From positions 1 to 25,522 of the IMG/VR virus record IMGVR_UViG_3300025873_000041: a stretch of 25,522 nucleotides of DNA; one strand, given 5' to 3'. Below the pieces are notes generated by a model. It was not told where the DNA came from. It did no database searches and was given only the letters and a program-made list of their open reading frames with translations. Positions 1,248 to 24,527 of the stretch are shown piece by piece. Made by a program: the position numbers and the translations under genes. The stretch is from a virus. Position 1 is the first letter of the stretch. Each line of letters opens with the position of its first letter.

Positions 1248-1718
1248 TTATTTGACAATAGCCGAGAATCGAGGTGTTCTTCTCTTCTCATCAAAAACCA
1301 GTAGACAGGATGGGGCTGGAGCCGAACTTTGTGCTTCCTGGAATTTGATCCGTCCTTTTACCAATCGAATTTCGGCTGACCGCATCGCCCAATCATGCCA
1401 CCACTTTGTGTCGGTACGGGCAAAAGTAAGACATACGACAGTGCAGCCTTTGGTGCTTTCCCAATATGCTTTTTCGATCCATTTTCCAATTTCACGACCA
1501 TAAGGAGGATTGAGCCAAATCGATCCACCAGCGGAGAGCGAACACCAATCCATACTCAGCGCATTTTCGGTCAGATAGGGTACGCACTTATGGTTTTCAT
1601 GGGATGCGGCTGCGTCAAGTACAAAATCGAATTCCTTATTGATCTTGTTGAAGAACGCCCAAGGCGTCCCCCAATCCTGTTTTTTGCTGCTGAATAATTT
1701 ATCATCCGACCAACTCAT
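1248..1718 (-). CDS. Phage DNA N6-adenine methyltransferase (Dam-type, phage_Nmethyl family)
   Basis: Transfers a methyl group from S-adenosylmethionine to the N6 of adenine in DNA. The 156-residue protein matches the compact phage family in length and order: QDWGTP near residues 14-19, the SAM-binding region FVLDAAASHENHKC at 32-45, and the catalytic NPPYG at 70-74. It ends with the usual basic, proline-containing tail. The ATG at 1718 is 6 bases after the stop of the preceding HTH gene, so the two are co-transcribed. Its likely roles are protection against host restriction or timing of replication. GATC sites are conspicuously dense in this window, which would suit a GATC-specific enzyme, but the recognition site cannot be read from the protein. 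Confidence 0.88.
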   Translation of the reverse strand: MSWSDDKLFSSKKQDWGTPWAFFNKINKEFDFVLDAAASHENHKCVPYLTENALSMDWCSLSAGGSIWLNPPYGREIGKWIEKAYWESTKGCTVVCLTFARTDTKWWHDWAMRSAEIRLVKGRIKFQEAQSSAPAPSCLLVFDEKRRTPRFSAIVK

Positions 1719-3310: not shown

Positions 3311-3859
3311 ATGACTACAGATCCGATCTATTTTGTAGACACCGAAACGACGGGACTATCAGCGAAACGACACGAGATAACCGAGATATGTATCCTCCGC
3401 AGACAAGAAGGAGAAGTGGACCGGCAGTGGACTTGGAGGGTAAATCCAGATCGTCTATATATGGCATCACCACGCGCACTTGAAATTAACGGATTTGATA
3501 TGGAGATTTGGGCTGAGACAGGATTGAGCCAATCCGAGGCAGCGAAAGAATGTGCAGAGGTACTTCAATCACCAGGGACTATCGTTGCCCACAATGCACA
3601 GTTCGATCTCAAGTTCCTATATGAATTGATGCACCAGCAACAACAGGCTTTTTCATTCCCAGAAAATGTTGTATGCACCCGAACCCTGGCGCACCAGCTT
3701 TCGAGTGTCACCGGATGGGACAAATGTTCGATGGACGCAATCCGTGGATATATGGGTTGGTCAACCGAAGGAGCCCACACCGCTACGAAAGATGTGGATG
3801 ATTTGGCGAAGCTGTATGATCACCTGATTGGGTTGATTTCAGATCGGGTATCTGTTTGA
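3311..3859 (+). CDS. DnaQ-like 3'-5' exonuclease (DEDDh family)
   Basis: Likely a proofreading-type or nucleic-acid-trimming exonuclease. All five DEDDh residues are visible: D10 and E12 in DTETTG (Exo I), D99 in AHNAQFDLKF (Exo II), and H156 and D161 in HTATKD (Exo III). The length of 182 residues equals a stand-alone exonuclease domain with no polymerase attached. The ATG at 3311 follows GGGGAATTCAAA. It is the first plus-strand gene after the divergent region. A weak promoter can be drawn (TTGAAA at 3255-3260, TACAGT at 3277-3282, 16-bp spacer), which is not a copy of the repeated cassette. Its substrate, host RNA/DNA or phage DNA, cannot be told. Confidence 0.9.
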   Translation: MTTDPIYFVDTETTGLSAKRHEITEICILRRQEGEVDRQWTWRVNPDRLYMASPRALEINGFDMEIWAETGLSQSEAAKECAEVLQSPGTIVAHNAQFDLKFLYELMHQQQQAFSFPENVVCTRTLAHQLSSVTGWDKCSMDAIRGYMGWSTEGAHTATKDVDDLAKLYDHLIGLISDRVSV

Positions 3860-17931: not shown

Positions 17932-18360
17932 ATGAGCCAAAAAAAGACTGAATTCGTCATATTGGGACAACCAATCCCATGCCCCCGACCACGAGTGACG
18001 ATGCGGGGTACTTTCTACCCCAAAAAATACCGCCAGGCAAAAGAGATATATGCTGGTCAAATCAGCTTCCATTTCGCGCAGCATCGCATTTCTTCTTTTG
18101 TTGGTCCTGTTTCTCTACATGTTGAATTCGTCCATAAGCGACCCAAGGCACTCAAGGGAATAGATCGAATGTGGAAAACAACTCGCCCAGATGTTGATAA
18201 TTTGGTGAAGACCATCAAAGATGCACTTTCCGCTGGTGGAGCATGGAAAGACGATAGCCAATGTTGTATTTTGTATTGTATTGATAATTATGGTGAGCCA
18301 AACGAAGAACCACATACCCGAATAATTATGTCGGAAATTATCGGATCACCTTTGGGCTAA
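17932..18360 (+). CDS. rusA: RusA-family Holliday junction resolvase
   Basis: Resolves branched DNA, which phages need before packaging. The 142-residue protein has the RusA order: an N-terminal strand with GQPIPCPRPR (12-21), the catalytic core RPDVDNLVKTIKDAL (85-99) with acidic D87, D89 and D97, and D107-D108 in WKDD. It is on the plus strand although all neighbouring structural genes are on the minus strand. It fills the 450-bp gap between the MuF and protease genes and overlaps the MuF 3' end tail-to-tail by 23 bp. No clear ribosome binding site precedes the ATG at 17932 (GAGG is about 17 bases away). Only a weak promoter-like TAAAAT is visible, so how it is expressed is unclear. Confidence 0.88.
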   Translation: MSQKKTEFVILGQPIPCPRPRVTMRGTFYPKKYRQAKEIYAGQISFHFAQHRISSFVGPVSLHVEFVHKRPKALKGIDRMWKTTRPDVDNLVKTIKDALSAGGAWKDDSQCCILYCIDNYGEPNEEPHTRIIMSEIIGSPLG

Positions 18361-20391: not shown

Positions 20392-21873
20392 CTATCTGTG
20401 TCGATTATAGCGTACCCACTGCATTGTTTCGTATCGTAACGCATCAAGAGCGTGATCATTCTCCTTTTTGGGCCTGTCCCTTTTTGATTTGGCATCCCAG
20501 CGATACAGTTTGAATTCTCGGATCAAATTCTTACAACCAGGGTGGATCAACAGTCCTGGTTTTCCCTCGCCATCGACTGTCATCAATTCCCTCAGCATCC
20601 CAATTCCTTCAAGAACACCCATGTGTTTTGGTGCTTTATGGGTTGGGATCATGCACTCTCGCGCCAAGGTTAGTCTTCCGTCCTTTGACTCTGGGTCGGC
20701 TACAGTCCAAAAATAATCTTCGGCTTTTGACATTTCCTTGATTTTCCTCCCAGCCTCAATCGTAGTTAGTCCTGTCTGATATAATTCTTGGTATACCACC
20801 AGAGTTGGATCGGCCCGAAGAGATCCGGAAGGAGCAACCGCGATCCATAAACAACAAAAAGGGTGAGTAGATCCGAAGTCAATAGACCGATGCCGTTCCC
20901 AATTATCTCCAATCTCAACAGATTGAATATGTAATTTTGGCAAGAATTCAGAATATACCAGACCAGCCTGTGAGGTAAATTCACCGAACAACCGCGACCG
21001 CTGTGATGCTTCGGATAAATGAGCGACTGCACTTTTCATCTTTTGAGAGGAGATATACGGATTATCGAGCCCGGAGATACGATCTGTTGAAAAGCCTGGA
21101 TACGGCTTGTCCAAAAAGCGATCATGCATCCAGGTGAGCCCTTTTAGCGGGGTTGCTGTTACCAATACCCAACCCTTGGAATCAACAACCCGAAGCATTG
21201 TTTCGTCAAATATGTCCTGCCCCGGTTCTTCGTCCAACCACACAATAGTTGGAGATCCACCTTGCCACTTTTCCCTTCCCGAATCACAAGACATTGATAC
21301 GATCCGACCGTTATTTGGTAATACCGCAAGTCCTCTATTATTTGCTGTCCATTGTCTTTTTTTGGTTCCTTTCGGTAAATACTGGTCGAGCTTTGGGCGT
21401 AAATACTCCAAACTATCACCATACGAAAGTGAGCCTATCCAGACAACACCGGGCTTTTCTGGGATAAGTGATTCTGGTATGTCATTCAAAGTCATCCAAT
21501 CTCGAACCCAATGCTCATTGGAACCCGCAGCAATAGCAACAGCCAGCATACTGCCCATTTGGGTTTTCCCCGCTCTATTCCCTCCAGCAACCAAACAAGC
21601 ATCGCCCCCAAGTAATATGGATCGAATGACCTGTTTTTGAGATGTTCGGGGTTCGACAATCCCGCACCGATCACAACGAAAAACACCGCCAGATATGTGT
21701 ACCATTGGGCGACCACAACCTCTTGCCCTTGGGGATTCATTCCCTGAACCATCCCACCTACAACAATGTGGCTCCCACAATCGCGCCACCGAAAGCGGAT
21801 ACTTTGCAGCTTTCCGAATCAATGCCCTCCTTGCTTCCAAGCCTCTCGATAATAATGCACGATTGTTAATCAT
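20392..21873 (-). CDS. terL: Terminase large subunit (ATPase and nuclease)
   Basis: Powers DNA packaging and cuts concatemers. In the 493-residue protein from ATG 21873 the motor has Walker A GGNRAGKT (97-104), Walker B IVWLDEE (210-216) and motif C VTATP (238-242). The nuclease has D332 in SIDFGS, D393 in VADPE and D473/D477 in ENDHALDAL. An N-terminal cysteine cluster (C37, C38, C53, C67, C70) with CDRCG may bind zinc, an extra element before the motor. The chosen ATG overlaps the TerS stop by 8 bases; in-frame TTG 21897 and ATG 21894 lie inside TerS without a ribosome binding site. It is followed by the portal gene, 9 bases away. Confidence 0.95.
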   Translation of the reverse strand: MINNRALLSRGLEARRALIRKAAKYPLSVARLWEPHCCRWDGSGNESPRARGCGRPMVHISGGVFRCDRCGIVEPRTSQKQVIRSILLGGDACLVAGGNRAGKTQMGSMLAVAIAAGSNEHWVRDWMTLNDIPESLIPEKPGVVWIGSLSYGDSLEYLRPKLDQYLPKGTKKRQWTANNRGLAVLPNNGRIVSMSCDSGREKWQGGSPTIVWLDEEPGQDIFDETMLRVVDSKGWVLVTATPLKGLTWMHDRFLDKPYPGFSTDRISGLDNPYISSQKMKSAVAHLSEASQRSRLFGEFTSQAGLVYSEFLPKLHIQSVEIGDNWERHRSIDFGSTHPFCCLWIAVAPSGSLRADPTLVVYQELYQTGLTTIEAGRKIKEMSKAEDYFWTVADPESKDGRLTLARECMIPTHKAPKHMGVLEGIGMLRELMTVDGEGKPGLLIHPGCKNLIREFKLYRWDAKSKRDRPKKENDHALDALRYETMQWVRYNRHR

Positions 21874-22315
21874 CCAGGTCCACCACCGGACCATCAATCA
21901 TTGGAGAGATCACACGATCTGCATCTTCAATCTCTTTCCGTAATTCTTCAACGCTCAAGATTTCGCTATCTGCTTCCACCGAGACCGACAGTGACATTTC
22001 ACGACGATAACCATGACGACGTTCAAGCATCCATGCTGCGGCTTGCCAGGATCCTTCCATAGCTGCATTCTGTATCAGTGCGAGCGACTTGATAGCAGAT
22101 TGAGACTCCGCTTGATCAACATCACGAACAAATTCAGCAAAGTCAGATTCCTGGTCTTGATCTCGTCTTCCTCTACTCATCCAGGATTGTAATGTTCTGA
22201 GTGGGATCCCTGCGTATGCGGATGCTATCTCTCTTGTACTTCCAACCCTTGTCGCCTCGATTACTCGCTTTTTTCTGTCTGCTGTGAATTTACTTGGTCG
22301 CCCCGGTTTTCCCAT
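21866..22315 (-). CDS. terS: Terminase small subunit
   Basis: Binds the packaging site and guides TerL. The 149-residue protein has the common opening GKPGRPSKFTADRKKRVIEA followed by an HTH (REIASAYAGIPLRTLQSWMS, about 28-47), then an acidic helical oligomerisation region (SDFAEFVRDVDQAESQSAIK) and AAAWMLERRHGYRRE, which is usual for this group. The ATG at 22315 is preferred over an in-frame GTG at 22324 because AGGTGAAGG lies at proper distance. It overlaps the 3' end of the TAGT glycosyltransferase gene by 26 bases and the start of TerL by 8, so modification and packaging genes are translationally linked. Confidence 0.88.
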   Translation of the reverse strand: MGKPGRPSKFTADRKKRVIEATRVGSTREIASAYAGIPLRTLQSWMSRGRRDQDQESDFAEFVRDVDQAESQSAIKSLALIQNAAMEGSWQAAAWMLERRHGYRREMSLSVSVEADSEILSVEELRKEIEDADRVISPMIDGPVVDLDD

Positions 22316-23225
22316 TGCCTTCACCTTTTCTGTGCAGTCCCATCCCGTAATTATTCGGTGTTTTCTCTACGTCATAATCCTCGCGACGGAGCAGTTTGTT
22401 TCTCTTGAATGGTCTATAGTCCACATGGTGATGGACACGACCGAATCTGAATACTACTTTTGAAACGTCAGGATGAGCATCAACCAGCATTTGTGATTTG
22501 GCTACAGTCCCGGTTTTTGAGTATTTTTCTCCTTTTGCCCTGTCTTCTGGCACATATATCTCTTCGGTATTTCCTCCTTTCATTATTTGGGTGGGCGTTT
22601 TTTGTTGTAAAAAGGCATTGAATAAAACAGTACACCAACCGGCTTTCAGCATATCCAGGGAAAGAATGGTGTCTTCGTTATACCGACCACGCCAACGAAA
22701 AGGCACATCATTTCTTATGAAATTACAGCTATATATTCGCCTGTTGGCAACGAACGGTGGGTATACATCTCGCGACGGGCAAAACATAAAATACTGTGGA
22801 CCTGCCATTGCGATATTTTTATACCGTTTACAAAAATCCTCCATGGCAAAAAAGATTGCACGGTCGCTCACTCGGATCCTTCTATTTTTGTGGAACCTGT
22901 AGAATGATCGAATGTTGTCATCCATAGTCCAGTGATAATCATGGCCGCTCGCAATCGAATGGTCCCAAATGAAGTTTCGGGCTGGTCCCGCACCAGTGCC
23001 CATATTGTCGGTGCCGAAGTCATCCAATAGATCATACTTTTCTTTGTATGTCAGATCCATGCAGAGCAGCTTTTTCTTGTCCACTCCGTTTTCCCGATAG
23101 TAGTCGTATTCCTGGGGCTCGATTACCAATAGATAATCGATACCGATAGAATCAAAATACCGCGCGGTTAGTCTTCTCTCTATTTCCGCTCGGCCTTTGC
23201 TCGGTATGTAAATCGGAGGAATCAA
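22290..23225 (-). CDS. TET-associated glycosyltransferase (TAGT)-like DNA-base glycosyltransferase
   Basis: The 311-residue protein matches phage TAGTs in order: an opening YIPSKGRA (6-13), LLVIEPQEYDYYRENG (32-47), GPARNFIWDH (80-89), the metal-binding WTMDDNI (99-105; D102, D103), RWRGRYNEDTILSLDMLKAG (177-196) with E184/D185 as possible catalytic residues, and the C-terminal HHHVDYRPFKRN. In the known systems such enzymes attach sugars to hydroxymethylated cytosines made by a phage TET-like oxygenase. No such oxygenase or DNA cytosine methyltransferase is seen in this window. The TTG start (23225) overlaps the ParB stop by four bases and has GGAGG 10 bases upstream. It overlaps TerS downstream, linking it to packaging. 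A sugar transfer to another target cannot be excluded. Confidence 0.85.
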   Translation of the reverse strand: MIPPIYIPSKGRAEIERRLTARYFDSIGIDYLLVIEPQEYDYYRENGVDKKKLLCMDLTYKEKYDLLDDFGTDNMGTGAGPARNFIWDHSIASGHDYHWTMDDNIRSFYRFHKNRRIRVSDRAIFFAMEDFCKRYKNIAMAGPQYFMFCPSRDVYPPFVANRRIYSCNFIRNDVPFRWRGRYNEDTILSLDMLKAGWCTVLFNAFLQQKTPTQIMKGGNTEEIYVPEDRAKGEKYSKTGTVAKSQMLVDAHPDVSKVVFRFGRVHHHVDYRPFKRNKLLRREDYDVEKTPNNYGMGLHRKGEGNGKTGATK

Positions 23226-23872
23226 TACCTATAATCCTCCGTCTTGTCCCAATCCTTTTTCGGATACCAAATACTCTTGGTGTTTTCATTCACTTTCTGG
23301 TCGAGTAGTTTTGCAAATTCACTTATTGCAGCAACGTCATCAAAATGAATAATTACGTGGGCGAACGACTTTTTGTCTTCATTCTCATATTCGGGCATTC
23401 CAACCCATTCCTCCCATGGATCGTTGACCCCATCTTCCTTTTCAAGAAACAAATTGGTCAATTCATCCTTACTGAATCCGATGCTTGAAAGATCAACGTC
23501 TTTCTCTTTCAGATCCGCCAATAACCCTGGCAAAATGTTGTTGTCCCAAGATGATAGCTCGGCAGTTTTGTTATCTGCGATTGCATACGCAGCGGCTTTG
23601 TCATCATCGAAGTCAGCGAAGACAACCCTTGCCTTTTTTCTCCCCAAAAGTCGGCAAGCCTTCCACCTTGTATGTCCCGCCATTATTCTATTACTGCTCA
23701 GTTGTACGATAATCGGAGCGACAAAACCGAACAACTTGATACTCGCTGCCAGTGTTTCTACAGCCTCATCATTATGGCGAGGGTTTTTCTCCCATGGGAA
23801 AATGTCCTCGATTGGCACCCAAGACATTTGGTCTTCAAGAGCGACAAAATTATGTTCTTGTTCCTGTTCCAT
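23222..23872 (-). CDS. ParB/Srx-like domain protein
   Basis: The 216-residue protein has the ParB N-terminal core: VPIEDIFPWEKNPRHNDEAV (19-38), ETLAASIKLFGFVAPIIV (39-56), the signature-like IMAGHTRWKACRLLG (63-77) and AIADNKTAELSSWD (97-110). This domain binds or hydrolyses nucleotides in ParB and related proteins; in phages it is often found with DNA methyltransferases and base-modification genes, where its role is unclear. The start at ATG 23872 is preferred because AAGGAG lies 10 bases before it and it follows the methyltransferase stop by 7 bases. The C-terminal half is acidic and unassigned. It is not a partition protein by context, as no ParA is present. Confidence 0.86.
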   Translation of the reverse strand: MEQEQEHNFVALEDQMSWVPIEDIFPWEKNPRHNDEAVETLAASIKLFGFVAPIIVQLSSNRIMAGHTRWKACRLLGRKKARVVFADFDDDKAAAYAIADNKTAELSSWDNNILPGLLADLKEKDVDLSSIGFSKDELTNLFLEKEDGVNDPWEEWVGMPEYENEDKKSFAHVIIHFDDVAAISEFAKLLDQKVNENTKSIWYPKKDWDKTEDYRY

Positions 23873-23879
23873 ATCAATA

Positions 23880-24527
23880 CTACTCCTTGAGCCAACTGCC
23901 TGTGAGATTCCAACCGCTCTCAAATGTTGGTCTAATTATGGGGCTGAACCCATTCATTTCAATTTTGGTCATTATTCCTTCTGCCCATCTTTTCCAGGGC
24001 TTTCCGACTATCGGATGGAATTCCAGAATAATAGCCCGTAACTGTGGTTGAATTATTTCGTACCCATATTCAGCACCCTCAACATCGATTTTGACTACCG
24101 TCGCGTCTTTTACTGCTTCCTCATATCGTATTGTTGGTACCTTGATCCGTTTGAATTTACCGCGTGATTTTGCAATGCTATTCGTAACGCCAATCCCTTT
24201 TGATATAAAGAATTCAACAAACGGGTCATCATTCCCTACAACAGCCAAATTGAATAATTGCATTTTCGGCTGGCGATTCATCGATAAAATCTTGAACGTA
24301 TGCGGTGTCGGTTCAAATGATAGGACTTGTTTTGCTCCGTTTTTAGCGGCCCAGATCGAATACTCCCCAACATAAGCACCTATATCTGCAACAACATCTG
24401 TATCAAATAGTTTGATGCTTTTGCATTCTCGCATTCCATTTGTAAAGGGTTTCGACGCCTTTTTGCTTCTCATTGCATAATGGCCGCCAGTAGTAGGGTT
24501 TTTGACCCATATCGGTGGATTATCCAC
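23880..24527 (-). CDS. FkbM-family SAM-dependent methyltransferase
   Basis: The 215-residue protein has the class I methyltransferase motif I VVADIGAYVGEYS (45-57), FEPTPHTFKILSMN (71-84) and VVKIDVEGAEYGYE (144-157), which together are diagnostic of FkbM-type O-methyltransferases. These normally methylate hydroxyl groups on sugars or polyketides. Next to a TAGT glycosyltransferase, a plausible role is methylating the sugar added to DNA; this is inference. The GTG at 24527 overlaps the previous gene by 8 bases and has GGTGA close upstream; ATG 24473 is a later alternative that would still keep motif I. It is translationally coupled to the ParB-like gene. Confidence 0.87.
   Translation of the reverse strand: MDNPPIWVKNPTTGGHYAMRSKKASKPFTNGMRECKSIKLFDTDVVADIGAYVGEYSIWAAKNGAKQVLSFEPTPHTFKILSMNRQPKMQLFNLAVVGNDDPFVEFFISKGIGVTNSIAKSRGKFKRIKVPTIRYEEAVKDATVVKIDVEGAEYGYEIIQPQLRAIILEFHPIVGKPWKRWAEGIMTKIEMNGFSPIIRPTFESGWNLTGSWLKE

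Follow-up and report, generated by a model that had tools for sequence, protein, structure and literature searches.

A putative DNA-glycosylation module with a TPD-TAGT core, located upstream of the terminase genes in a phage fragment and its relatives

The closest described counterpart of the enzyme considered here is the beta-glucosyl-HMC-alpha-glucosyltransferase (ggt) of phage T6, presented as a characterised DNA glucosyltransferase in a 2026 paper (PMC13216743). T6 ggt belongs to the TET-associated glycosyltransferase (TAGT) family (PF20691, E 4.8e-11) and its gene adjoins that of a dCMP hydroxymethylase, from which the T6 acceptor, a hydroxymethylcytosine already bearing glucose, derives. 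The same text reports solitary TAGTs in 288 of 753 phage genomes, states that their function is undefined and, as far as it is available, makes no mention of a ParB or other partner domain, of a terminase-associated slot or of FkbM (PMC13216743). Here we examined IMG/VR record IMGVR_UViG_3300025873_000041, a phage fragment from an incomplete genome whose 25,522 bp constitute the entire record, with no other contigs, and are referred to below as the window. On its minus strand we identified a TAGT gene preceded by a ParB-like gene and a gene for an FkbM-type methyltransferase, and followed by the terminase genes. TAGT, ParB_N and FkbM are already known families; the ParB-like protein ends in a further conserved region, here termed the TAGT partner domain (TPD). 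Taken together, the comparisons described below make it probable that this locus is a DNA-glycosylation module with an obligate TPD-TAGT core, situated immediately ahead of the terminase genes in a slot conserved for DNA modification. The window TAGT shares its PF20691 membership and GT-A type with T6 ggt and, like the solitary TAGTs, its group occurs without T4-type alpha- or beta-glucosyltransferases. In contrast, T6 possesses neither a TPD nor a ParB partner, and hydroxymethyl machinery such as that beside ggt was not found in the window group.

In transcription order, the minus-strand genes encode FkbM, ParB, TAGT, the terminase small (TerS) and large (TerL) subunits, and then the portal and a MuF-like protein. 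The initial annotation had recognised the first three from short motifs, all of which we recovered together with profile matches: YIPSKGRA, WTMDDNI and RYNED in the 311-aa TAGT (22290..23225, minus strand; PF20691, E 2.3e-36), GHTRWKA in the ParB-like protein (23222..23872, minus strand; ParB_N, E 6e-11), and FEPTP and KIDVEGAE in the 215-aa FkbM-type S-adenosylmethionine (SAM)-dependent O-methyltransferase (23880..24527, minus strand; PF05050, E 3.2e-9; TIGR01444, E 6.7e-20). It had also described the FkbM gene as running 26 nt into TerS; the overlap exists (22290..22315, minus strand), but the gene that overlaps the TerS start is TAGT. The proposed TAGT assignment itself was upheld when the protein was searched against the family by hidden Markov model, with a score of 126 bits against a curated cut-off of 27.5 and coverage of positions 2-204 of the 205 in the profile. 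The MDDN and RYNED motifs are intact, and D102, D103, N104, E184 and D185 are invariant across 30 aligned relatives. An AlphaFold model of the protein (pLDDT 87.7) matched SpsA/GT2-type GT-A folds with low TM-scores (0.38-0.42), and a sequence search of the PDB with the TAGT returned chance matches only.

Examination of the best 80 viral relatives of the window TAGT (50-60% identical) identified a ParB gene upstream on the same strand in 76, and TerS and/or TerL after the TAGT in most. Among the four relatives lacking an upstream ParB, three have their TAGT start within approximately 750 bp of the contig edge, and the TAGT of L067 is cut by the edge. The pair was also recovered in 10 of 11 loci from bacterial genomes, including those of Xenophilus, Rhodovulum euryhalinum and an Acidobacteriaceae isolate, with the eleventh locus beginning at a contig edge. 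Recurrence at this level (76 of 80) is far beyond chance, and the grouping is not accidental.

At its N-terminus the ParB-like protein carries a ParB_N domain (residues 33-118 of the open reading frame; 23570..23827, minus strand; Pfam) with GHTRWKA and ADNK motifs, the predicted fold of which matches ParB/Noc CTPases (E 5e-8), including CTP/CDP-bound ParB and Noc; it is accordingly predicted to be a ParB/Noc-type domain carrying nucleotide-binding motifs. The last ~67 residues form the TPD (23222..23425, minus strand), defined by profile and alignment through the motif W..MPE[FY]...F...F...TKSIW[YF]P, with W173, M176, P177, F203 and P221 invariant among 41 aligned ParBs. The TPD had no match in Pfam (one protein scanned), PHROGs or NCBIfam. 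Searched by itself in viral contigs, the TPD matched at more than 500 places, and among the 80 that were kept a TAGT adjoined the TPD in 79, the sole exception lying at a contig end. Approximately a quarter of these 80 loci possess a stand-alone TPD of 74-114 residues lacking ParB_N. The TPD profile further identified fusions to the TAGT N-terminus in Aeromonas phage Aeh1 (56.5 bits) and Vibrio phages 1.076.O (37.0 bits) and 1.124.O (35.6 bits), fusions to both tandem TAGTs of Vibrio phage Kuja (33.2 and 26.1 bits), and a TPD upstream of the TAGT in phage henriette. The TPD is therefore encoded in three arrangements, as its own small gene, as a ParB tail and as a TAGT head; since such a set is a classical sign of physical partnership, the TPD is likely to be a physical partner of TAGT. 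Neither the TPD nor its strict association with TAGT appears to have been described in the libraries searched. A role of the ParB in plasmid partition was also considered and set aside, the ParB being locked to TAGT; the list of open reading frames of the window showed no evident ParA gene, although no search aimed at ParA was made.

The FkbM protein scores above the cut-offs of both NCBIfam TIGR01444 (fkbM_fam; 72 bits versus 37.7) and PF05050 (37.6 bits versus 22.7), and its SAM motifs DIGAYVGEYS, FEPTP and KIDVEGAE are intact. As a single query it found no relatives in viral contigs or the phage collection; relatives were reached only through a two-row alignment with the FkbM of record L023, which is 48% identical and itself lies upstream of a ParB-TAGT pair. 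This search, conducted without reference to TAGT, yielded approximately 31 viral relatives (42-71% identical), and a TAGT was present in 26 of the 29 corresponding records. Two of those without one are short contigs whose end truncates the FkbM gene. The sole clear exception to the link is L133, a 66-kb record whose FkbM is 47% identical to that of the window and in which PF20691 detected no TAGT. Gene order varies across these loci: FkbM > ParB-TPD > TAGT is found in the window and L023, while others possess ParB-TPD > FkbM > TAGT, TPD > FkbM > TAGT, or FkbM followed by a fused TPD-TAGT. Across 103 TAGT loci, a tally joining two search sets in which the FkbM share is inflated, the TPD was present in 97 and ParB in 86. 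Also identified around the TPD-TAGT core were a second glycosyltransferase (Gly_transf_sug), a class I methyltransferase or a radical SAM-SPASM protein, as well as an NDP-sugar epimerase together with a UDP-glucose dehydrogenase-like gene. These neighbours fit what would be expected of a module with a varied sugar, and decorating genes, FkbM among them, thus swap around the TPD-TAGT core. Separately, tandem TAGT genes with one ParB upstream or with a TPD were observed in four loci (L087 4997-6912, L085 7575-10263, L182 and L194), which suggests the addition of two sugars in succession.

Closer inspection of the position between ParB_N and the terminase revealed that it is occupied by different enzymes in different phages. 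In Psychrobacter phage Y8A (L163 3462-4719) a ParB directly precedes Mom (PF25680, E 1.8e-55), which is followed by the terminase, so that the ParB-X-TerS slot of the window module is filled by an enzyme of the phage Mu type. Mom acts on an unmodified base, and differs from the present module in that its chemistry is adenine carbamoylmethylation. In Streptococcus phage Javan117 an N6_N4_Mtase is fused to the ParB. Mycobacteriophage Zemanar likewise carries ParB-linked base-modification genes just before its terminase (Tet_JBP, the amino-acid:DNA transferase ADDT and a P-loop kinase), but this cassette includes a TET oxygenase and no TAGT, and the Zemanar ParB has no match to the TPD profile. 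A TAGT fills the slot in Lactobacillus phage c5, E. coli phage 666R9, haloarchaeal HHTV-2 and Porphyromonas phage 005b. Furthermore, many of the best phage matches of the window ParB are annotated as DNA methylases, and the predicted structure of its ParB_N resembles the DNA clamps formed by ParB/Noc. Given that the same slot holds DNA-modifying enzymes and that the T6 DNA glucosyltransferase is a TAGT, DNA is the likely acceptor, as judged from this genomic context.

Whether TAGT and FkbM might instead act on a virion or packaging protein, or on a host surface glycan, was weighed against the same evidence. SpsA/GT2-type GT-A enzymes act mostly on glycans or proteins, FkbM enzymes mostly methylate natural-product or glycan sugars, and the module touches TerS, all of which would suit such an acceptor. 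However, a slot shared with Mom, DNA methylases and TET cassettes, together with the DNA-associated fold of ParB_N, points in the other direction, as does the action on DNA of the sole characterised family member, as stated in the 2026 paper (PMC13216743); we therefore regard a non-DNA acceptor as unlikely. A further alternative retains DNA modification by ParB and TAGT but treats FkbM as an independent passenger acting, for example, on host polysaccharide. Most TPD-TAGT loci do lack FkbM, which was present in 2 of 50 TAGT records and in the window occupies the outermost position of the cassette. Yet this FkbM subfamily, found independently of TAGT, keeps company with it in nearly all of its records (26 of 29, as above), and in many of them FkbM is placed between ParB-TPD and TAGT with overlapping genes, leaving the passenger explanation the least probable of those considered.

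The initial annotation had proposed a cassette for multi-step cytosine modification, of which the functional three-gene group and DNA modification as the best reading still stand, whereas the chemistry from TET through hydroxymethylcytosine to the sugar does not. Under that scheme, a C5-methyltransferase and a TET/JBP oxygenase encoded elsewhere in the genome would yield 5-hydroxymethylcytosine, to be glycosylated by TAGT and methylated by FkbM. In its favour, the window is a mere 25.5-kb fragment of an incomplete phage, the name of TAGT derives from its association with TET, and some small TAGT-phage records do carry C5-methylases, though only 4 of the 24 screened. Conversely, Tet_JBP had no match in 64 distinct virus records (50 TAGT relatives and 15 FkbM-TAGT records, with L023 in both) or in 11 whole bacterial genomes with such prophages; the control search detected the divergent TETs of phages Nigel and Zemanar (E ~5e-8, below the cut-off of Pfam), so that a still more divergent oxygenase could escape. 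The thymidylate synthase/dCMP-hydroxymethylase family was likewise absent from the 24 small TAGT-phage records and from 14 further FkbM-group records (L023 counted once), in a search whose controls T6, Kuja, henriette and Aeh1 were positive. The annotations of two phages deposited as complete, c5 (31.8 kb) and 666R9 (38.7 kb), list no oxygenase, hydroxymethylase or DNA methylase, nor did any emerge when their unnamed proteins were scanned against Pfam. With Tet_JBP absent from the relatives screened and the hydroxymethylase family absent from the small-phage records, the TET/hydroxymethylcytosine route is not supported, and we consider it as improbable as a non-DNA acceptor.

The reading we prefer, a DNA-glycosylation module built on TPD and TAGT, draws on gene order, families and motifs, on the exclusivity and fusion of TPD and TAGT, on the equivalence of the slot and on the recurrence of FkbM, all read from sequence. 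In such a module, ParB_N would bind or clamp phage DNA and bring the complex there, while the TPD tail would dock TAGT and present a DNA base to it. TAGT would then move a sugar from an NDP-sugar onto a base of replicated phage DNA prior to packaging, and FkbM would O-methylate a hydroxyl of the added sugar, late and alongside the packaging genes; in related phages, other swapped-in enzymes would perform this decorating step. Either a canonical base, as in the case of Mom, or one that an unrecognised enzyme has hydroxylated may serve as the acceptor. We infer the physical docking, the DNA acceptor, the methylation of the sugar and the timing of these steps. Several points weigh against this interpretation. 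The AlphaFold model of ParB leaves the TPD mostly without assigned strands, and a great distance separates the window TAGT from T6 ggt, which the TAGT tree cannot place firmly owing to a very long branch. No acceptor-making enzyme is known for the phages of this group, in which the screens described above recovered neither a TET oxygenase nor a pyrimidine hydroxymethylase; to our knowledge, the characterised DNA glycosyltransferases all use hydroxylated pyrimidines. A bolder proposal, which we advance tentatively and hold to be somewhat doubtful, is that TPD-TAGT represents a self-sufficient DNA glycosyltransferase, placing sugar straight onto a canonical base, or onto a hydroxyl supplied by an unrecognised enzyme, and thereby bypassing both TET and hydroxymethylase. 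Here the TPD would serve as the enabling adaptor, and swappable enzymes, in the window FkbM, would diversify the sugar to give O-methylated sugars on DNA.

Other TAGT loci differ in their ParB partner. Like the window, Lactobacillus phage c5, HHTV-2 and the Rac-type pairs of E. coli possess ParB_N followed by TAGT upstream of the terminase, but their TAGTs form a separate clade in the tree and their ParB tail is not a TPD. In this clade (L164, L165, L166 and L167) the ParB ends in another conserved region, marked by an ADYYA-type motif, that may be the counterpart of the TPD for that clade. The E. coli pair, consisting of ynaK (ParB) and TAGT (L166 4208-5924), was detected at a query coverage of at least 80% in 885 of 5426 complete genomes; approximately 690 further genomes contain only part of it, and broken Rac-type copies may be common. 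A literature search on HHTV-2 returned nothing on a glycosyltransferase or ParB, and for Aeh1 DNA the literature gives just an 'unknown base' (PMC8056088).

Within the window, the TerS gene (21866..22315, minus strand; phrog_4102, E 1.2e-26) begins at an ATG at 22315, and is followed by TerL (20392..21897, minus strand; phrog_2, E 3.8e-28; Terminase_6N). The probable ParB start is the ATG at 23872, 7 nt beyond the FkbM stop and with an AAGGAG ten bases 5' of it, whereas the open reading frame listing begins at a TTG at 23923. TTGA is common to the ParB stop and the TAGT start, the TAGT start codon being TTG. Also identified were a RusA resolvase (17932-18360, plus strand; PF05866, E 6.9e-20) wedged between the minus-strand prohead protease and MuF genes, and a DnaQ-type exonuclease (3311-3859, plus strand; RNase_T, E 2.6e-17) as the first gene of a plus-strand group. 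A phage Dam-type N6-adenine methyltransferase is encoded at 1248-1718 (minus strand; PF05869, E 3.4e-27), and in Vibrio phage 1.124.O a Dam gene lies two genes away from the TAGT; a link between the Dam gene and the acceptor base is possible.

Our literature search found no mention of ParB together with hypermodification, the terminase and Mom, nor of FkbM with phage DNA modification; Iyer 2013, which lay outside this search, may describe part of the neighbourhood. The present analysis provides solitary TAGTs with an obligate partner domain that appears to be undescribed, with decorating genes that can be exchanged, and with a conserved genomic slot common to proven or predicted DNA-modifying enzymes. 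Their function thereby becomes directly testable on cultivated phages and E. coli prophages. If the proposed activities are correct, these phages would glycosylate their DNA and methylate the added sugar without hydroxymethyl-pyrimidines, which would be of relevance for restriction evasion and for DNA-labelling enzymes.

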